Shown here piece by piece: positions 6,210 to 15,154 of a stretch of DNA of 64,000 nt (position 1 is the stretch's first letter; each line of letters opens with the position of its first letter). Location: assembly GCA_016185395.1 (NCBI GenBank), contig JACPNR010000009.1, positions 62,001 to 126,000 of the forward strand. Direction: 5' to 3'. Origin of the DNA: Candidatus Korobacter versatilis. GTDB lineage: Bacteria > Acidobacteriota > Terriglobia > Terriglobales > Acidobacteriaceae. The position numbers and the translations under genes were made by a program. A model generated the notes under the pieces. That model was not told the DNA's origin. It did no database searches and saw only the letters and a program-made list of their open reading frames with translations.

Positions 6210-7460
6210 TTACAGCGAACTCATGTTGGCCAAAAACTCGCCGTTCGAGCGCGTCTTGCTGAGTTTATCGATCAGCAACTCCATCGCCTCCACCGGCGAC
6301 AGCGGGTTCAGCACCTTGCGCAGCACCCAGATGCGCGCCAGGTCTTCCTTGGGGATGATGAGCTCCTCCTTGCGCGTGCCCGAGCGCTGAATGTCGATGG
6401 CCGGAAACACGCGCTTATCGGAGAGCTTGCGGTCGAGGATGACCTCCGAGTTACCGGTGCCCTTGAACTCCTCGAAGATGACGTCGTCCATGCGGCTGCC
6501 GGTCTCGATCAGGGCCGTCGCGATGATGCTGAGCGAGCCGCCCTCCTCGATGTTGCGGGCCGCGCCAAAGAACCGCTTCGGCCGCTGCAGCGCGTTCGAA
6601 TCCACGCCGCCGGAGAGCACTTTGCCGCTCGGCGGCACGATGGTGTTGTAAGCGCGCGCCAGGCGCGTGATGGAATCCAGCAGGATGACCACGTCGCGCT
6701 TGTGCTCGACCAGCCGCTTGGCCTTTTCGATCACCATCTCGGCGACCTGCACGTGGCGCGCCGCGGGCTCGTCGAAGGTCGAGCTGATGACCTCGCCCTT
6801 CACCGAGCGCTGCATGTCCGTGACTTCTTCCGGACGCTCGTCGATGAGCAGCACGATGAGCACGACCTCCGGATGATTGGTGGTGATGGAATTAGCGATG
6901 TTCTGTAGGATCATCGTCTTGCCGGCGCGCGGCGGAGAGACGATCAGCGCGCGCTGGCCTTTGCCCAGCGGCGTGAGCAGGTCCATGACGCGCGCCCCGA
7001 TGTTCTCCCGCACGGTCTCGAGCTTCACCCGCTCCTGCGGATACAGCGGCGTCAGGTTGTCGAACAGGATCTTGTTGCGCGCTTCATCCGGCGATTCGAA
7101 GTTCACCGCCTCGATCTTGACCAGCGCGAAGTATTTCTCGCCTTCGTGCGGCGGTCGCACCTGGCCGCTCACCGTGTCGCCCGTCTTCAGGTCGAACTTG
7201 CGGATCTGCGAGGGCGAAACGTAGATGTCGTCGGGGCCAGGGAGATAGTTGTAGTCGGGCGAACGCAGGAAGCCGTAGCCATCCGGCAGTATCTCCAGGA
7301 CGCCTTCCGCGAAGATGTGCCCTTCCTTCTCGCTCTGGGCCTGCAGGATCTTGAAGATGAGGTCCTGCTTGCGGAGCCCGCTCGCACCGGGGAGGTCGAG
7401 CGACCGTGCGATCTTGGTCAGCTCCGTGATGTTCTTTTCTTTGAGTTCTGCGATTGTCAT
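6210..7460 (-). CDS. rho: Transcription termination factor Rho
   Basis: A hexameric RNA-dependent ATPase that ends transcription. The 416-residue protein is close to the E. coli length. In order: N-terminal helical Rho_N domain (about 1-45), cold-shock-like RNA-binding domain with GYGFLR near residue 65, then the RecA-type motor with Walker A SPPRAGKT, Walker [14 protein letters not shown], and [10 protein letters not shown] in the secondary RNA-binding loop region. I chose ATG 7460, which has AGGTG just upstream, over GTG 7466. There is no large insertion in the RNA-binding domain such as some actinobacterial Rho proteins carry. Confidence 0.97.
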
Positions 7461-7586
7461 GTTCACCTGCGGTGGGATTTTTTTGGAAGAGGGGGGAAAG
7501 CGAGCGACGGACGCGCCAGCCAGACTCGGGAGGGTGGTGCGCTTCGCGGCGCTGGTGCGGAGGTGCCGGCGCGCCGCGAAGCAGTA

Positions 7587-7808
7587 TTATGCAGCCCGCT
7601 TGTGTGATTCTGCAAGCACTTCCGTGCGGCCCATCACGGTCTCGGGTTCCGCCACCGCCGCGCCCACCTTGGTCAGGATGTCGTTCATCGTGTCCTGGAT
7701 GCGGAGGCTCGGCTTGTGGAACCGGCGCGTGGCCTTGGACGCGAGCTGGCACAGCTCATAGCGGTTACGGACCGTCTTTACCGCCGGGAAAACCAGGTCA
7801 GAACGCAT
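7587..7808 (-). CDS. rpoZ: RNA polymerase omega subunit
   Basis: A 73-residue protein. The segment NRYELCQLASKATRRF fits the conserved N-terminal helix of omega, which clamps the C-terminus of beta-prime during polymerase assembly. The tail is shorter than in enterobacteria. It lies upstream of rho on the same strand with a 126-base gap, so two core transcription genes are adjacent. The family call rests on this one conserved stretch and on length. Confidence 0.75.
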   Translation of the reverse strand: MRSDLVFPAVKTVRNRYELCQLASKATRRFHKPSLRIQDTMNDILTKVGAAVAEPETVMGRTEVLAESHKRAA

Positions 7809-8141
7809 ATCGTGTCTCCTCTATCTGTTGCCGACCGCGCCCAGGAAGGCAGCTCAAGGACAATGAAGCCCGTAAACCGCTCAACTTGCCTGAGTTTCCT
7901 TGGGATAGTACGGTCTGCGCCAACCGTATAGATGCCCTAACGGCACCCTAAGTTGCTCTCTTTTTCGCTGGGCCGGCAAGTGTCAACTTGCGCCAGAGGG
8001 ACTTAGACTAAGTCCTGTTAACCGGTAAGTCAACAGTTTTGGGACCTGCGGCGTGCCCAGAGAGTAACTTCCAAGGCTTCACCGCCGAGGCGCCGAGGCC
8101 GCCGAGAAGACCCGTTTCACTTGTCAAAGAGCGAAAAGCTT
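7809..8141. other. Gene-free stretch upstream of rpoZ
   Basis: About 330 bases without a credible gene. It probably holds the rpoZ promoter on the minus strand (a TTGACA lies at 7981-7986, but I could not match it to a well-spaced -10). It also holds the 17-bp palindrome at 7999-8015 and a copy of the CCGAGG-type repeat at 8078-8110. Confidence 0.5.
7999..8015. repeat. Palindrome GGACTTA-GAC-TAAGTCC
   Basis: A perfect 7-bp inverted repeat with a 3-base centre, about 190 bases upstream of rpoZ. A closely related palindrome lies upstream of hrcA at 25640-25659. Confidence 0.7.
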
Positions 8142-8184
8142 TTCACACGAAGGACACGAAGGTCACACGAAGGGGCACGAAGGC
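8121..8184 (+). repeat. ACACGAAGG-type dispersed repeat, copy A
   Basis: Begins with TTGTCAAAGAGCGAAAAG, then tandem CACGAAGG units separated by short spacers. It ends 4 bases before the SDR stop codon. Copy B (9301-9355) shares both the leader and the tandem part; copies C (30625-30719) and D (35479-35547) have the tandem part in both orientations. Confidence 0.85.
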
Positions 8185-8187
8185 GGA

Positions 8188-8997
8188 TCACTTCCCTGCG
8201 GTGGCGGCCGCGACCGCTCCCCGGCCCGCCAGGAACCCGCCGTCGAGCACCAGCGACTGGCCGGTCATGAAGCTGGCGCGGTCCGAGCACATCCACAGGA
8301 CAGCCTCGGCCACCTCCATCGGCTTGCCGAAGCGCCCGATGGGATGCATCCCCACCGCGAACGGCCGGACCTCGGGCGCGCCGAACAGCCGCTCGCCCAT
8401 CGGCGTCTCGATGACCGCGGGACAGATCGCGTTGATCCGTATCCCCTGCGTGGCGGTCTCGAGCGCCGCGGCTTTCGTGAGCCCGATCACCGCGTGCTTC
8501 GACGCGCAGTAAGCCCCCGCGCCCGCCGCGCCGATCCATCCCGCCACCGACGCCATGTTGACGATGGCCCCGCGGCTTCCGTCGGGAGACGCAGCCTGCT
8601 TGAGCATCTGCCTTATCTCGTGCTTCAGGCACAGCCACATGCCCTTCAGGTTGATGTCGAGGACGGCGTCCCAGTCGGCTTCCGTCTGTTCCGCGACCGG
8701 CGCCCACATGCCTTCGATGCCGGCGTTGTTGAAGCCAATGTCCACGCGCCCGAACTTCGCGACCGCCTGCGCGAACAGGGCGGCGACGTCGGCGGCCTTG
8801 GCCACGTCCGTTTTGACGAAGATGCCCTCGCCGCCGGCAGCGCGGACCAGGTCGAGTGTCTCCTTGCCTTCCTTTTCGCGGCGCCCGGCGACAATTACCT
8901 TCGCGCCCGCCTGCGCGAACAGGATGGCCGTGTCGCGCCCGATGCCCGACGTCCCGCCGGTGATGACCGCGACCTTGTTTTCCAGTTCCTTCGTCAT
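8188..8997 (-). CDS. Short-chain dehydrogenase/reductase (SDR)
   Basis: 269 residues, a classical SDR. The NAD(P) motif TGGTSGIG is near residue 14, NNAG near 91, and the active-site Tyr-x3-Lys is seen as YCASK near 163. The C-terminal LVLDGGFLAG segment is typical. It reduces or oxidises an unknown small substrate in the cytosol. It stands alone, bracketed by two copies of the ACACGAAGG repeat, and a TTTCCGG-type repeat begins about 55 bases upstream of its start. Confidence 0.9.
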   Translation of the reverse strand: MTKELENKVAVITGGTSGIGRDTAILFAQAGAKVIVAGRREKEGKETLDLVRAAGGEGIFVKTDVAKAADVAALFAQAVAKFGRVDIGFNNAGIEGMWAPVAEQTEADWDAVLDINLKGMWLCLKHEIRQMLKQAASPDGSRGAIVNMASVAGWIGAAGAGAYCASKHAVIGLTKAAALETATQGIRINAICPAVIETPMGERLFGAPEVRPFAVGMHPIGRFGKPMEVAEAVLWMCSDRASFMTGQSLVLDGGFLAGRGAVAAATAGK

Positions 8998-9051
8998 GGC
9001 TCCTCCGAAGGACGAAGCGTAGTGATGTGGCGGCGCGGGGTCAACCGGATT

Positions 9052-9140
9052 CAGTTTCCGGTCTCCGGTTTCCGGTTTCCGGTCAACGGCACCACGGACG
9101 AAGGGCTGGGATCACCGCCGAGCTCGCCGAGAGCGCCGAG
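9052..9140 (+). repeat. Left composite repeat of the accessory island
   Basis: Two units: a 32-base unit of TTTCCGG repeats (9052-9083) and a CCGAG-rich unit (9112-9140). The same two units recur in the same order on the opposite strand at 13394-13323. By eye the 32-base units match at 28 positions in inverted orientation. Confidence 0.8.
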
Positions 9141-9191
9141 AATGCTCACCGGCCAATAGTCCAGTCCGCCTCGGCGGGCGGATGGGATCAG

Positions 9192-9211
9192 CCCCGCGCT
9201 TCAGCGCGGGG
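9192..9211. repeat. REP-like hairpin with TTCA loop
   Basis: CCCCGCGC-TTCA-GCGCGGGG, a perfect 8-bp stem. A hairpin with the same TTCA loop but a different stem occurs at 13096-13115. A CTTTCCACTCTG-type repeat follows at about 9232-9300. Confidence 0.75.
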
Positions 9212-9231
9212 AAGACGGAACATAAAAGACC

Positions 9232-9297
9232 CTTTCCACTCTGCCCGCCGCGGCGGGCCGGCGCGCAGTCCCGCAGAGCGGGACGTAGCGCCCGAAT
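9232..9297 (+). repeat. CTTTCCACTCTG-type dispersed repeat
   Basis: Begins CTTTCCACTCTGCC and continues with a GGCGCGCAGTCCCGC segment. Related copies begin at about 10238 (short) and 13137 (with CCAGCGCGCAGTCCC), and a more diverged one at 9439-9480. All lie between genes of the 9-13.4 kb island. Confidence 0.65.
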
Positions 9298-9300
9298 GAA

Positions 9301-9355
9301 TTGTCAAAAAGCAAAAAAAGCGTTCACACGAAGGACACGAAGGTCTCACGAAGGC
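9301..9355 (+). repeat. ACACGAAGG-type dispersed repeat, copy B
   Basis: Shares the TTGTCAAA leader and the tandem CACGAAGG core with copy A at 8121-8184. Confidence 0.85.
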
Positions 9356-9604
9356 GAGGACTCGAGTCCGCGGTTAGCGGACGGCAGAATGTAGCCCGGC
9401 GGCGTAAGCCCCGGGTAGCCGTAAAACAATCCCCTTTCCGCTTGCCGAAGGCCCGCGCGCAGCGAAGCGGAGCGCGTGAATAAACGGCCTCACCTTCGGG
9501 ATGCTGGGCGCCGAAGCCATCAACGGCCGCAAGATCCAAAACATTACGCTTTCGGCGCAAGCGCGACTGCGCATAGGCTAAGGATGGGCAGGAGTCCCCA
9601 ACAG

Positions 9605-10186
9605 ATGAACCAACCAGGGAAAGCGCGGGTTACTAAGGAGAGGGACGTGCGAATCCACGCCGAGCTATGGCACACGTCCAATTGTCTGCTCAAGGCTGGA
9701 CAAGAAGAACCGAGGGGCTCGGCGCATCAGTTCAGGGCTAGCCTCATCTTTCGCGCCTTCGCCTTGGAAGCTCTCTTGAATTGGCTCGGGCCGAGGCTTA
9801 TCCCGCACTGGAATTATTTGGAACGACTGAAGCCAATTGAGAAATTGAATTTGTTGGCCGATTTGATCGAGGCGAAGCCGGATTACGGCGCGCGACCGTG
9901 GCAAATCGTGAAGGACCTATTTGGCTTTAGAAATGCGATTGCGCATGGGAAACCCGAATCCCTAAGCGACGAAACGACAGAGGACTTGGACGACTTTCTG
10001 GATGCAAAGCTCGGTCAGTATTTACAAACCGCCTGGGAACTTTTCTCGACTGAAGACAACGCGGTTCGCGCAAAAGAAGATGTCCTAAAGATTGCGACCA
10101 TTCTTTATGAAAAGGCCAACGTAGAACATGACGGGCCAAAAGGACCTTTCAGTTTCGGTTTTCAGATTCACGGCGCGAGCCTTTAA
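9605..10186 (+). CDS. HEPN-like protein, putative RNase or defence component
   Basis: 193 residues and mostly helical. The ATG at 9605 was chosen because AGGAG lies 10 bases upstream and the longer reading to 9476 runs through repeat sequence. The segment FGFRNAIAHG near residues 107-115 contains R-N-A-I-A-H (Arg109, His114), the Rx4H motif of HEPN domains, many of which are metal-independent RNases in toxin-antitoxin and anti-phage systems. Lower GC and many Leu/Glu/Lys codons set it apart from neighbouring housekeeping genes. No partner antitoxin is adjacent on the same strand. The family call is from the motif and helix pattern only. Confidence 0.6.
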   Translation: MNQPGKARVTKERDVRIHAELWHTSNCLLKAGQEEPRGSAHQFRASLIFRAFALEALLNWLGPRLIPHWNYLERLKPIEKLNLLADLIEAKPDYGARPWQIVKDLFGFRNAIAHGKPESLSDETTEDLDDFLDAKLGQYLQTAWELFSTEDNAVRAKEDVLKIATILYEKANVEHDGPKGPFSFGFQIHGASL

Positions 10187-10306
10187 AAGACTCGCGAGGC
10201 GACGCGCCTGACCCTCGGTAGCGCAAGAGAGAGAAAGCCTTTCCACTCTGTCAACGGAGGAGCGGAGGCCGGTGGACTTTTGTTGCTGCAGCTCAGACGC
10301 CGCCGG

Positions 10307-11002
10307 TCAAATCAGGCCCAAGTCCTTCTTCATTTCTAGAAACTCGTCAGTACAGCCAGCCTCTTCAGCTGCTCTAAGTTGGGCCTTCTTACCTTCGCGG
10401 AGGACGTGCACTAGCCATTCGTAGTCAGTAACGTCCAAAAGCTCGGGAGTACACCACACACCGTCGAACTTAAGGCGTATCGCGTTCACCGCTCTCCGGC
10501 CAGCATCGACCAACGAGCCAATCTCAGCGTCCAGAGCAGGAAGCTGATCTAGCGCGTCTAAGTGAAAGTGGGTTTTGTCGCGATGCGCCAGCAACTTGTC
10601 ACGTATCGTCTTAACCGCATCCAGGGCGCCGGATGCCTCGGCCAGAGACTCCCGCGCCTCTTCAATTCCCTTTAGGGCGTCGCTGGCGCCGCTCTCAAAT
10701 TCTTCAACCTTTTGCGCCGCGACTTCTAGTAGGTACTTGAGCGTCACAGCCCTGCTGGAGGGGTCATATAACCGGGTTATGATGATGCACGACATCTCGA
10801 GCAGTGCGGTCTGAGTGAGTGCGAAGTATGTAGGCGCTATTCTCAGTATCGTCTCTACGCGCAACTGCGACGACATCCCCGCATAGACCTTTCGATAAGC
10901 GTCTGCCTTGACAAGATCGAAGAAGAGCCGGTCGCACAACTCGGAAAGGGATATTGCACCTGGTGTCGCTGCAGGAGCCATGTTCTGCGGTTCCACGGTC
11001 AA
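10307..11002 (-). CDS. AbiU2-like HEPN domain protein
   Basis: 231 residues and helical. The sequence IRDKLLAHRDK near residues 133-143 contains Arg134 and His140, an Rx5H motif. The wording R-D/N-K-x-x-A-H-R-D is characteristic of the AbiU2-like HEPN group associated with abortive infection. It starts with TTG, preceded by AAAGG, and overlaps the stop of the upstream gene by 4 bases, so it is the third gene of a nuclease/unknown/HEPN operon. Later starts at 10996 (GTG) and 10981 (ATG) are possible. Confidence 0.65.
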   Translation of the reverse strand: MTVEPQNMAPAATPGAISLSELCDRLFFDLVKADAYRKVYAGMSSQLRVETILRIAPTYFALTQTALLEMSCIIITRLYDPSSRAVTLKYLLEVAAQKVEEFESGASDALKGIEEARESLAEASGALDAVKTIRDKLLAHRDKTHFHLDALDQLPALDAEIGSLVDAGRRAVNAIRLKFDGVWCTPELLDVTDYEWLVHVLREGKKAQLRAAEEAGCTDEFLEMKKDLGLI

Positions 11003-11553
11003 CGCAAGCCTTTCGGATCCATTCCCTTTAGTGTCCGCTCGGCACGTTCCAAGGCTTCGTCTGTCTCCGCCTTAGGACTCCCCTCAATGAATAATTTCGC
11101 CAGATTTGCTTGCCATTTCGCTGCACCGCCATTTGGGTCAAGGACACTGAGGTCATTCAACCTGGGTGCACCAAGGAGTGCAAACCTAACCAAGTCGAAC
11201 GGATAGCAGTACTCCGGCTCGACAGCTCCCGGCGCAAAGACTTTACATACAGGTACAAAGTTGCGGCTACAGACGGCGTAGTGGTAGGGATTTCCTTTCT
11301 CGACTTTGTAGCCGTCAGCTTGAAGCTTCTCAATTGCCTCCGCAAGCCGGGCATTCAGTTCACGGCGTTCAATGTCCCATTCAATCGCGAGGCCGCGTAG
11401 CCATGCGGTTTTATCGTGGTCGTCAATCTCTTTCAGCAACTCTTCTTCCGAGATGCCTCTTCGGACCGCTACTTCCTTGATTCGCTTTTCATCGAGATGA
11501 TGCGGTATGCGGTTCGTTTGGTAGTACGCATCAAACTCTTCTTGCTCTGTCAT
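10999..11553 (-). CDS. Unknown protein in the HEPN/nuclease operon
   Basis: 184 residues. The start at 11553 has a strong AGGAGG 6 bases upstream; an apparent longer frame to 11853 lies inside the preceding gene. The N-terminal 60 residues are charged and helical, with EEELLKEIDDHDK. The middle carries a Cys/Tyr-rich stretch (PYHYAVCSRNFVPVC). I do not recognise a family. Position argues it is functionally tied to the upstream nuclease candidate and the downstream HEPN protein, with which it overlaps by 4 bases. Confidence 0.6.
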   Translation of the reverse strand: MTEQEEFDAYYQTNRIPHHLDEKRIKEVAVRRGISEEELLKEIDDHDKTAWLRGLAIEWDIERRELNARLAEAIEKLQADGYKVEKGNPYHYAVCSRNFVPVCKVFAPGAVEPEYCYPFDLVRFALLGAPRLNDLSVLDPNGGAAKWQANLAKLFIEGSPKAETDEALERAERTLKGMDPKGLR

Positions 11554-11587
11554 CCTTCCTCCTGTGGATGGGTGCACTTGCGCCTCT

Positions 11588-12532
11588 TTAGAGTCCCCCG
11601 CCTTCGGCGATGCCAACCTGAAGTGCTTCCGAAACTGCCTTCTGGTTCTTGTCAAGATCAACTGCGAGCAATCTAATTCGAATTGTGTCGCTCTCCATCC
11701 TGTACGCGTCGAGGCCCAGGCTCTGCAGCTTCTGCAACGTGGATTCTGTGTTTGCGTCTCCCACACGGATATTGACCATGCAATGCTTATCGCGTTTTCG
11801 GGGAGTGAACCATGCAAAATTCCGCTTCGCGCCTCCGATCGCGATGTGCCCATCGTTGTATGTGATTCGCGGATTGGCTGAATCCCTCGACAACAAAGCT
11901 ATGCACTTCTCAAAGACGCTGAACGACTCAGCGCCTGCATACTCCTGCCACGCCTGCCTGCTAGAGCCTGCGATCTGATCGGGCTCGCGGCCTTCGGGGG
12001 TCTCGTATATGTCGAGGATTTTTGTGAAGTTGAGCGTCAGTTTCCCATCCACCGTCAGAGTGTCCAGCTTGATCGCGATGATCGGCACCGAACGATTCAG
12101 CAGCCAAATCACGTTGAAAAAACGATTCGTGATCTCTTCCGCAACCAGCACTGCCCGATGTTCGAAATTAGGCCACCGGCGGGTCTCGATGTCCCAGTAT
12201 TCCAACGTTCGGATGATGTGACTCTCGTCCGTCGGTCCAAGCATTACCTCGATCTCGAACATCGTCTGGCTGTCGGGATCGAGAAAAACGAAATCCAATC
12301 TGCCGCCGGCATGTTGCCGCACTTCCCTCCCGACAGGTTTGAGATCTCCCAAACCCAAGATGGAAGGGTTCGCCATGATCGTGCGCTGGAGCCACGCCTC
12401 GTCATAGCCGGCCCCGCGGAGAGTCAATCTTTGGCACGGAACATAAGGGTTTGGCACCAGCACCTCCAGATACGGCGTTATCGGAGCGGGAGTCTGACTC
12501 CCGTAACCAGGTCTGTCAAGACGGCTACGCAC
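11588..12532 (-). CDS. Putative PD-(D/E)XK-like nuclease
   Basis: 314 residues. The N-terminal part YDEAWLQRTIMANPSIL resembles the helix found before nuclease cores of the NucS/DUF91 type. The core GGRLDFVFLD (Asp80), about 12 residues, then MFEIEV (Glu93, Glu95), fits the D...ExX pattern of the fold, although the final Lys of ExK is Glu. A conserved-looking helix EYWDIETRRW follows. The C-terminal 100 residues form a second unknown domain. It is the first gene of the operon; the GTG start at 12532 is uncertain. An upstream AT-rich 80-base gap, shared with the divergent Cys/His gene, probably holds both promoters. Confidence 0.5.
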   Translation of the reverse strand: MRSRLDRPGYGSQTPAPITPYLEVLVPNPYVPCQRLTLRGAGYDEAWLQRTIMANPSILGLGDLKPVGREVRQHAGGRLDFVFLDPDSQTMFEIEVMLGPTDESHIIRTLEYWDIETRRWPNFEHRAVLVAEEITNRFFNVIWLLNRSVPIIAIKLDTLTVDGKLTLNFTKILDIYETPEGREPDQIAGSSRQAWQEYAGAESFSVFEKCIALLSRDSANPRITYNDGHIAIGGAKRNFAWFTPRKRDKHCMVNIRVGDANTESTLQKLQSLGLDAYRMESDTIRIRLLAVDLDKNQKAVSEALQVGIAEGGGL

Positions 12533-12614
12533 TGAGCGCCCCGAGCAGTTTACTTTCGCTATTTATTCTCTTGCTACTTGACAGCTTTTCAAAACATGAA
12601 ATAATCCATTACTT

Positions 12615-13058
12615 ATGTATAGCAATGTGAAACAACTCCCCTTGGCTCAAGACTTTACCCCTCAACCGGGATTTCCAAAAGACTTAGCGGCCAAAGCCGC
12701 GCAACCACCACAAAACAAAAGACCGGCGCAGCCGGAGGGGAGGGGGGTAATCCCGGTTATTCCGCCACCGGTCCTAAGCCAGCCGTTCAGAAAGCCGCCG
12801 TTTATAAGAACGTGCAGCGGCACGAAAGCGGACGGCACCCGCTGCGGCTCCCCCGCCCTTCGCGGGAAATCCCACTGCTACTACCACGTCCCCGGACGTC
12901 AACGAACCAGCAGAAGGAAACGTGAGACTGTTTTACCCAACCTCCGCGATCCTCAACGGATGCTCGCCTGGGCCATGATGAACCTCGCCGTCGGCCGCAT
13001 CGACACCAAGGCCGCCGGCCAGCTCATCTACGCCGTCCAACAACACCTCTACCAATAG
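12615..13058 (+). CDS. Acidobacteria-type Cys/His mini-protein
   Basis: 147 residues. The centre has CSGTKADGTRCGSPALRGK followed by CYYHV, that is Cys-x8-Cys-x9-Cys-x2-His, a likely zinc site. It is followed by an Arg/Lys stretch (RQRTSRRKR) and a C-terminal helix with IDTKAAGQLIYAVQ. The N-terminal third is Pro/Gln-rich and low complexity. I recall many paralogous proteins with this Cys/His core and IDTKxAG tail in Acidobacteria, all of unknown function; the basic patch suggests nucleic acid binding. It is divergent from the nuclease operon. Confidence 0.65.
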   Translation: MYSNVKQLPLAQDFTPQPGFPKDLAAKAAQPPQNKRPAQPEGRGVIPVIPPPVLSQPFRKPPFIRTCSGTKADGTRCGSPALRGKSHCYYHVPGRQRTSRRKRETVLPNLRDPQRMLAWAMMNLAVGRIDTKAAGQLIYAVQQHLYQ

Positions 13059-13068
13059 AGGTGGCAGC

Positions 13069-13086
13069 CCCCGACTTAAGTCGGGG
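13069..13086. repeat. Perfect palindrome CCCCGACTTAAGTCGGGG
   Basis: An 18-bp perfect palindrome 11 bases after the stop of the Cys/His gene. It may act as a transcription end or belong to the REP-like set. Its GACTTAAGTC core also occurs upstream of hrcA. Confidence 0.75.
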
Positions 13087-13095
13087 CGGTGGAAG

Positions 13096-13115
13096 CACCG
13101 GCCTTCAGGCCGGTG
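13096..13115. repeat. REP-like hairpin with TTCA loop
   Basis: CACCGGCC-TTCA-GGCCGGTG, an 8-bp stem with the same TTCA loop as the hairpin at 9192-9211. A CTTCCACTCTG repeat follows at 13137. Confidence 0.75.
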
Positions 13116-13322
13116 AAAAAGATCGGCGCGCAGCGCCTTCCACTCTGCCGAAGGCCAGCGCGCAGTCCCCGCCGTTGGGATGAAGCGCAAGAAAGCTCTT
13201 TGAAAACTTGCACAGCAGATTCCTCGCTCGCGCTCCCTCCCGCTGACGCGCTCGGCTCGCGCGGCTCGGAATGACAAGGAATGACGGGATGCTGACGCGG
13301 GCATGAATGCCCACTCTTCCAC

Positions 13323-13394
13323 CGTCTCCGCGCCCTCGGCGCCTCGGCGTTGAAGTTCGGCCACCGGAAACTGGAAACCGGGAACGGGAAACTG
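13323..13394 (-). repeat. Right composite repeat of the accessory island
   Basis: On the minus strand this reads the 32-base CAGTTTCC...GGT unit (13394-13363) and then the CCGAGG unit (13354-13323), mirroring 9052-9140. It ends 4 bases from the yifB stop. The rest of the gene-free 13059-13397 stretch holds the two hairpins and the CTTCCACTCTG repeat. Confidence 0.8.
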
Positions 13395-13397
13395 CCG

Positions 13398-14963
13398 TCA
13401 CGCCCAATACGTCCTATCCAGCGTCCGATACTGGATGGCCTCGGCGATGTGTTTCGGCTGGATGGCGGCTGAGGCTTCGAGGTCGGCGACGGTCCGCGCT
13501 ACTTTGAGGATGCGGTCGTGGGCGCGGGCGGAGAGTCCTTGCTGCGCCATGGCGCGCTCGAGCAGGTGCTCGCAGTCGGATGAAAGATCGCAGTAGACGC
13601 GGATCTCGCGCGAGCCCATTTGGGCATTCGCATAAATGCCGGCGAAGATCTTCTCGCCGGCGGCGGCGAAGCGGTTGAGCTGGACTTCGCGGGCGCGGAC
13701 GGCGCGGGCGAGTATCTTCTCGGAACTCTCGGGTGAGGAGGCGCCGCGCATCTCCTTGTAGTTCACCGCGGGGACGTCGATGTGGATGTCGATGCGGTCG
13801 AGCAGCGGTCCCGAGATCTTGGAGACGTAGCGCTGGATCATGGGTCCGGTGCAGTGGCACTCGCGGTGGCGCTGGTCGTTGTGGTATCCGCAGGGACACG
13901 GATTCATCGCCGCGGCGAGCATGAAGCGCGCGGGGAAGGTGAGCGACATGGCGGCGCGGGCGATGGAGACGTGTCCGTCTTCGAGCGGCTGGCGCATGAC
14001 CTCGAGCACGTTGCGCGGGAACTCGGGCAGCTCGTCGAGGAAGAGCACGCCGTGGTGCGCGAGCGAGACCTCGCCGGGGCGCGGGATCATGCCGCCGCCG
14101 ATGAGGCCGGCGTCGGAGATGGTGTGGTGCGGCGAGCGGAACGGGCGGGCGCCGACCAGGCCCGCGCCCGGCTCGAGCACGCCGGCGACGCTGTGGATCT
14201 TGGTGGTCTCGAGCGCTTCGTCGAAGGTGAGCGGCGGCAGGATGGTGGGGATGCGTTTGGCGAGCATCGTCTTGCCGGAGCCGGGCGGGCCGATCATGAG
14301 GATGTTGTGTCCGCCGGCGGAGGCGACTTCGAGGGCGCGCTTGGCCGTCTGCTGGCCGCGGACGTCGGAGAAATCCACGCTGAAGCGGCGGGATTCGTTG
14401 AGCGTGGCGTCGGGATCGACGGACACCGGCTTGATGCTGTTGCCGGAGTTCACCAGCTTGACGACGTCCACCAGCGACTTGACGGGATAGACATTCACGC
14501 CGGCGACCATGGCGGCCTCGCGCGCGTTGACCTCGGGCACGATGAGGTTCTTGATGCCCTTGTCGCGGACGGCGACGGCGATGGGCAGCGTGCCGCGGAC
14601 GCCACGCACGCCGCCATCGAGTGAGAGCTCGCCGACGAGGACGTGGTCGGGGAGAGTCTTGTGGGCGAGCGCGCCGTAGCAGCCGAGGATTCCGAGCGCC
14701 ATGGGCAGGTCGAAGCCGGAGCCTTCCTTCTTGATGTCGGCGGGAGCGAGGTTGATGGTGATGTGCGTGGGAGGGACGTCGTAGCCGCAATTCTTGAGCG
14801 CGGCGCGGATGCGCTCGCGGCTCTCGCGCACGGCGGCATCGGGCAGGCCGACGGTGTTGAAGTAGCCGCCGTCAGAGGCCTGTAGGCCGGAGACGTCCAC
14901 CTCGACCTCGATGATATTCGCGTCGATGCCGTAGACCGCGGCGCTGAGCGTCTTAAAAAGCAT
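13398..14963 (-). CDS. YifB/ComM family Mg-chelatase-like AAA+ ATPase
   Basis: 521 residues. The start at 14963 was chosen because the family begins with [14 protein letters not shown]; the longer frame to 15005 adds a non-conserved tail. The N-terminal ChlI-like fold (1-170) is followed by the AAA+ core, with Walker A GPPGSGKT and Walker [11 protein letters not shown] Cys cluster follows ([18 protein letters not shown]), then the C-terminal helical Mg_chelatase_C domain ending in [13 protein letters not shown]. ComM-type proteins are hexameric branch-migration helicases in natural transformation. It is monocistronic here. Confidence 0.93.
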
Positions 14964-15154
14964 GAGCCGATGAGATATAGCGCGGCCTGGCCGGCTTGTA
15001 ACCACGAAGTGTTTTTTGTCCGGATTCTGGAACAGCGGACAAACCGCGTGGATTGCGGCTTATGCCCGCGCCGAGAGCAGGACGCCCTGCTCCGCCGCAA
15101 AAAGAAGCGCCGGCGAGTCGCCGGCGCCTACCGCGTCAATCTTCTTGCCGCTTT

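Follow-up and report, generated by a model that had tools for sequence, protein, structure and literature searches.

Within the 64,000-nt window of the Candidatus Korobacter versatilis genome analysed here (G000:C7:62001-126000; G000 being the 2.48-Mb, 15-contig, 90%-complete assembly), a block of five unusual genes, i1 to i5, lies just downstream of yifB, bounded by inverted composite repeats at 9052-13394. The block is probably accessory DNA that occupies the loop of one chromosomal hairpin nested in another. Arms of similar make frame single genes of two other protein families, and there the gene family predicts the length of the repeated arm unit, 7 nt for S23/IVP genes and 8-10 nt for GxxExxY genes.

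The outermost layer of the block would be a resident hairpin with heptamer arms (T), placed directly downstream of yifB and older than the block. A second hairpin, of CCGAG-type units (C), would have come to lie at the centre of the T hairpin, and the low-GC genes i1-i5, together with further hairpin modules, would then have accumulated inside C, pushing the arms 4.3 kb apart. The genes would have entered at the palindrome centre, most likely by capture after cleavage of a cruciform or breakage during replication. GxxExxY proteins, which Pfam places in the PD-(D/E)XK superfamily, are candidates for a hairpin- or cruciform-cutting enzyme, and S23/IVP proteins are related to the nucleic-acid-binding Avd protein of diversity-generating retroelements. 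The T arms and the C or H arms (H, CACGAAGG) would represent the two arm kinds that elsewhere frame small single-gene elements, the T type with its 7-nt units round S23/IVP genes and the C/H type with units of 8-10 nt round GxxExxY genes; gene-less copies of these elements would be the dispersed hairpins.

A preliminary description of the window had matched the two 32-nt outer arms by eye at 28 of 32 bases, and a repeat search of the window returned the same inverted pairing (9052-9083 with 13363-13394, 88% complementary). The search also bore out that a CCGAG-type unit follows each arm in the same order, immediately inside it (left, 9113-9142; right, 13325-13355), and that a single copy lies outside the island, at 8077-8107. 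The T arms have a repeat period of 7 and the C and H arms a period of 8-9. The island has stem-forming inverted arms, as in an intervening sequence (IVS).

The age of the outer hairpin was assessed from the yifB site in relatives. A scan for tandem GTTTCNN units, covering ~300 kb round the yifB genes of 20 relatives as well as shuffled sequence, gave as its sole hits an array at +122 from yifB in G003, one at +748 in G001 (same genus), and an unrelated site 10.8 kb away, with none in the shuffles. The heptamer arms of the window lie at +9 and +4322. Both of the relatives' arrays are oriented as the distal arm, and G003 has a facing arm at +5, the pair folding as a 13-bp stem round a ~120-bp interval. 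G001 and G003 have heptamer arms at the yifB site and lack the block. The T hairpin at yifB appears to be orthologous and older than the block, and the simplest history would be a single heptamer hairpin after yifB, the loop of which has grown to 4.3 kb in the window.

The same comparison defines the extent of the insertion. An island-free locus, which the preliminary description had proposed looking for, was found in G001, the closest genome, which lacks the neighbouring SDR gene as well; the other relatives compared likewise have no block between rho, omega and yifB. Homology between G001 and the window (blastn) ends at ~7965 and restarts at 13394, so that the variable stretch includes the SDR gene at 8188-8997. 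The rho-yifB spacing is 0.65-1.5 kb in eight relatives (G001, G003, G010, G011, G012, G022, G027 and G030), and relative to them the SDR gene is thus also an insertion, albeit one of native composition. The extent first proposed for the island, 9052-13394, holds for the arms, but the variable stretch is longer (~7965-13394) and the low-GC part is shorter, being confined to ~9.6-13.06 kb. Five other relatives carry quite different genes in the omega-yifB interval, without T arms, and the interval is therefore a site of gene turnover. In G018, of another genus, a GxxExxY remnant lies directly after yifB, where the island stands in the window (G018:C14:126316-126498, L034).

Two other sites offer possible precedents for insertion at a hairpin centre. 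At G000:C5:98142-98293 (L139:6143-6294), the heptamer arms enclose CCGAG arms in a single nested hairpin (fold z of -7.9 against shuffles). The heptamer palindrome there is kept across genera, being common to G000, G001, G025 and G003 (comparison loci L259, L245 and L240), and a ~90-bp CCGAG hairpin, present in G000 only, occupies its exact centre. At the FadB/FadA site, G000, G001 and G025 have a GxxExxY gene between H-type arms (CACGAAGG/CACAAAGG), and G003 has a hairpin without a gene. At either site the difference may have arisen by gain or by loss.

The association of arms with genes was examined at one locus per genome, comparing the 260-bp flanks of PF13366 (GxxExxY) and PF05635 (S23/IVP) genes and counting inverted arms as matched at a score of at least 32. 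Matched arms were found at 23/30 loci of each family. Among the controls they occurred at 1/176 and 1/177 with shifted flanks, at 0/18 yifB and 0/12 i5-family loci, and in 1/600 random intervals. Flanks paired across different loci of the same family matched in 50/870 (PF13366) and 23/870 (PF05635) cases, a result of unit types being common to several loci. Among the best-matching arms, a period of 7 was seen at 23/27 S23 loci and at 0/27 GxxExxY loci (Fisher p 3e-11), the GxxExxY periods being 8-11. All S23 loci (7/7) and GxxExxY loci (3/3) examined in G000 have matched arms, one of the S23 loci having merely a 14-nt arm pair with a score of 28; these elements span 321-554 bp and their unit letters vary by locus. 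In these loci gene family predicts arm unit length. Co-variation between arms was considered as proof of a maintained stem and was not used, as the identity of a locus's own arms is often, not always, above the cross-genome identity.

Plasmids from four further phyla show the arm pattern too. Arms of period 7, for example TAGGGAG and AGGTGAC, flank S23 genes on plasmids of the cyanobacteria Calothrix, Nostoc, Anabaena, Pseudanabaena, Stanieria and Geminocystis; the Stanieria signal is weak, and in Anabaena the shifted control is high too (40 vs 56). Period 7 holds for 9/10 S23 loci of other phyla, the exception being Gemmatirosa with 8, and the GxxExxY loci of Gemmatirosa, Bernardetia and Sphingomonas have periods of 8-9. 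In the Anabaena and Pseudanabaena plasmids (L305, L307), cas6 and cas4 flank the S23 element, and in Sphingomonas the GxxExxY element has fabD and fabG on either side. Among the open-licence papers searched, we found none that links S23 or GxxExxY genes to tandem-unit arms.

We tentatively suggest, as a proposal with somewhat less than an even chance of being right, that two unrelated families of small proteins, the S23/IVP four-helix-bundle proteins and the GxxExxY PD-(D/E)XK proteins, belong each to its own class of selfish hairpin element and set the length of the arm unit there (7 vs 8-10 nt), with the letters under no such constraint. The short tandemly repeated repetitive (STRR) sequences of cyanobacteria, the multicopy repeats of Geobacter and the CACGAAGG, CCGAGG and TTTCCGG repeats would then be gene-less descendants, and the elements would enter hairpin centres, making landing places for foreign genes such as those of the island.

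Genome-wide counts of the repeat classes rest on pattern searches, with the reversed pattern as control, and all three classes greatly exceed chance. The TTTCC heptamer has 31 sites in the genome (control 1), CACGAAGG has 105 (control 0) and CCGAGG has 43 (control 6). Many CACGAAGG copies are plus-then-minus pairs ~50 bp apart, i.e. hairpins, and solitary half-elements are also present. Some hairpins lie just past stop codons and between ribosomal protein genes, and have strong folds. These are paired tandem-unit repeats of the Geobacter type, with short units, opposite-strand pairs, many copies and a mostly intergenic location. The repeat modules could not be given an Rfam identity, all Acido-Lenti-1 matches being sub-threshold.

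The genes of the block differ from their neighbours, as the preliminary description had it: i1-i5 have a GC content of 0.52-0.59 and a third-position GC content (GC3) of 0.54-0.67, compared with 0.62-0.69 and 0.75-0.905 for the flanking genes, the SDR gene included. The block is accessory and foreign by composition. No domain match was obtained for i3, and i1 gave a weak HEPN match only. The i4 family, with the core GRLD...YEVExQLG..DESHIIRTLEYWDIE, has members in Cloacimonadota, Fibrobacteres, Bacteroidota, Acidobacteria, Verrucomicrobia and others. An AlphaFold model of i4 (pLDDT 80.6) matches NucS/EndoMS in the PDB (E 3e-5), which points to a PD-(D/E)XK nuclease fold, and i4 is likely to be a nuclease-like protein of this type, with D80 and E95 as predicted active-site residues. 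The distribution is patchy, with i4 in 7/150 and i2 in 3/150 genomes of the family. PADLOC recognised no full defence system in the block, giving weak single-gene matches only (PDC-S11, HEPN). The genes probably serve anti-phage defence. One i5 paralogue (L009:1379-1783; G000:C2:71966-72370) has a TTTCCGG heptamer unit within its reading frame. A short direct repeat, CTTTCCACTCTG(CC), occurs at 9232, 10239 and 13136, between groups of island genes, and is nearly confined to the island (3/5 hits at no more than one mismatch). It was rejected as a cassette border, since just 13-14 nt are common to the copies and their alignment shows no common structure.

Table 1. Features of the island and its flanks (window positions), and framed genes at other loci (locus identifiers)
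Feature	Position	Strand	Basis or remark
rho	6210..7466	-	Pfam, synteny; rho, omega and yifB are a near-contiguous core trio in many relatives
Putative RNA polymerase omega-like small gene, conserved left flank	7587..7808	-	By eye from sequence
C1, solitary CCGAG arm	8077..8107	+	Repeat search
TTGTCAAAGAGC + CACGAAGG (H) module	8111..8173	+	Direct copy at 9291-9354 (81% over 64 nt), other side of SDR gene
SDR oxidoreductase, native composition (GC3 0.90)	8188..8997	-	Relatives compared lack it here
T left arm, heptamer (TTTCCGG)n, period 7	9052..9083	+	Distal arm of hairpin at yifB 3' end
C2 left arm, CCGAG units	9113..9142	+	Repeat search, period analysis
Further hairpin/repeat modules (CCCCGCGCTTCAGCGCGGGG, CTTTCCACTCTGCC, TTGTCAAAAAGC, CACGAAGG)	9189..9354	+	Weak Acido-Lenti-1 matches
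i1, weak HEPN-like open reading frame (ORF), GC 0.52	9476..10186	+	Start uncertain, ATG at 9584 likely
i2, AbiU2 HEPN protein (PF18734, E 8e-17)	10307..11002	-	Pfam
i3, orphan ORF	10999..11568	-	
i4, likely PD-(D/E)XK-type nuclease-like protein	11588..12532	-	Model vs NucS/EndoMS; PADLOC PDC-S11 E 2e-7
i5, small Cys/His protein	12615..13058	+	Multicopy family (6 places in the window's genome)
Right-hand hairpin modules (CCCGACTTAAGTCGGG, CCGGCCTTCAGGCCGG, CCTTCCACTCTGCC)	13066..13180	+	
C right arm	13325..13355	-	
T right arm	13363..13394	-	Few bases past yifB stop codon
yifB (Mg-chelatase-like AAA ATPase), core right flank	13398..15005	-	
GxxExxY genes in tandem 8-10-nt inverted arms	L185:1254-1740 (G000:C11), L219, L205-L234		Letters vary by locus
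S23/IVP genes in tandem 7-nt inverted arms	L264-L293, L294-L299, L302, L303-L312		Including cyanobacterial plasmids

Several observations weigh against a loop grown inside an old hairpin. G001 lacks the proximal T arm, the heptamer letters of G003 differ from those of the window, and an independent gain of a hairpin at a favoured position is possible. The left C arm has a better competitor outside the block, since the right C arm pairs best with the solitary copy at 8077-8107 (31 nt, 90%). The several other repeat modules in the block may reflect serial accumulation in a variable spot, the T/C symmetry being partly fortuitous. Neither a target-site duplication nor a junction was seen, the sole same-genus empty site being too diverged at the junction, and the genomes compared include none of the same species in the exact pre-insertion state.

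In the likeliest alternative, the omega-yifB interval would be a hotspot of gene turnover that also collects dispersed hairpins, T and C halves flanking the genes symmetrically by accident. The different gene sets without T arms in five relatives, the many modules within the block and the solitary half-elements elsewhere in the genome all fit this, and the chance expectation of one inverted heptamer pair within 5 kb, ~0.08, is not tiny. Chance does not, however, account well for the order of T then C, outside-in, at both ends, for the heptamer arms at the yifB site of G001 and G003, or for the nested T/C hairpin on C5 with its exactly central C element. Beyond the figure of ~0.08, chance pairing of the arms is made unlikely by the agreement of the inner units and by the arms that relatives have at this site, and we regard this alternative as a whole as unlikely, with some force left in it.

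The preliminary description had read the block as a mobilised cassette without its own transposase. In so far as the block is accessory, foreign, bounded by inverted composite repeats and free of transposase and integrase genes (Pfam), this was sound, but mobilisation by the arms did not stand up. In that version, the five genes would be cargo, and the T/C composite arms terminal inverted repeats recognised by a trans-encoded enzyme; the occurrence of the same kind of arms round single-gene elements is in its favour. At 1-10 kb, however, the island pair is the single inverted heptamer pair in the genome, and CACGAAGG plus/minus pairs at this range show no excess (6/51). Genes i1-i3 are beside none of 26 i4 loci (GTDB, many phyla), and matched arms are absent from the flanks of the i4 homologues, as they are from the i5 family. 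A terminal-inverted-repeat cassette was rejected on these grounds, there being no second copy, no long-range excess and no arms round the island genes where these are scattered elsewhere. The idea that the arms belong to i4 or i5 was rejected because their other homologues are armless. Mobilisation of the REPIN/RAYT kind was also rejected, the eight Y1 transposase genes having no H or C arms nearby; two of the eight loci (L115:1398, L116:1215) have a heptamer-like match at 2 mismatches. With heptamer arms that appear to be older than the block at the yifB site, a cassette moved in trans is improbable. That the arms are transcription terminators or mRNA-stabilizing hairpins and nothing else, with genes inserted beside them independently, is very unlikely indeed: the strong folds past stop codons and between ribosomal protein genes fit such a role, but it cannot explain the family-specific unit length or the gene-bearing and gene-less forms at one site, and as a secondary function it is compatible with genes captured in a resident nested hairpin.

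Taken alone, the island is an accessory insertion of moderate interest, and a nested hairpin already present at the site is the best explanation of its symmetric borders. The rule linking family to unit length is the more valuable part. If the two-class proposal is true, several bacterial intergenic repeat families of obscure source would have a common origin, and two large protein families of unknown function would gain a rule of genomic context. The island would further suggest that hairpin centres are places where chromosomes acquire accessory genes.

The nearest described system is the IVS of 23S rRNA genes with an S23p/IVP ORF (PF05635), for example in Coxiella, which is described as selfish, sporadic and horizontally acquired (PMC4990558). 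Like the S23 elements, it is small and has inverted terminal arms as a stem round the ORF. It differs in location, the annotated plasmid S23 loci here being between protein-coding genes and the island between omega and yifB, and in that the arms here are tandem 7-mers with letters that change by locus. The window has no S23/IVP ORF (tblastn with an IVP protein), such ORFs being present in 7 hairpin loci of the same genome. Multicopy repeats of Geobacter metallireducens, presented as 'global regulator binding sites' of classes 1-4 and read as IHF/HU binding sites (PMC2700814), resemble ours in classes 1-3, which are tandem 7-9 nt units in opposite-strand pairs with variable spacing, intergenic and intragenic, in many copies; in its passages on these classes that report describes neither a link to S23 or GxxExxY genes nor nested insertion. 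REPIN/RAYT systems likewise comprise dispersed intergenic hairpins with gene-less copies far in excess, but no Y1/RAYT gene lies between H or C arms in the window's genome, and the arms here are tandem units, not a tagged REP palindrome. The island resembles defence islands in having an AbiU2 HEPN protein and a PD-(D/E)XK protein together between core genes, and differs from them, and from the AbiU2 and PDC-S11 candidates, in that its gene set matches no known system. The STRR heptamers of cyanobacteria are intergenic tandem 7-mers. We know of no description of STRRs as arms of an S23 gene element, and it is heptamer arms of such a kind that frame the S23 genes on the Nostoc, Calothrix and Anabaena plasmids.

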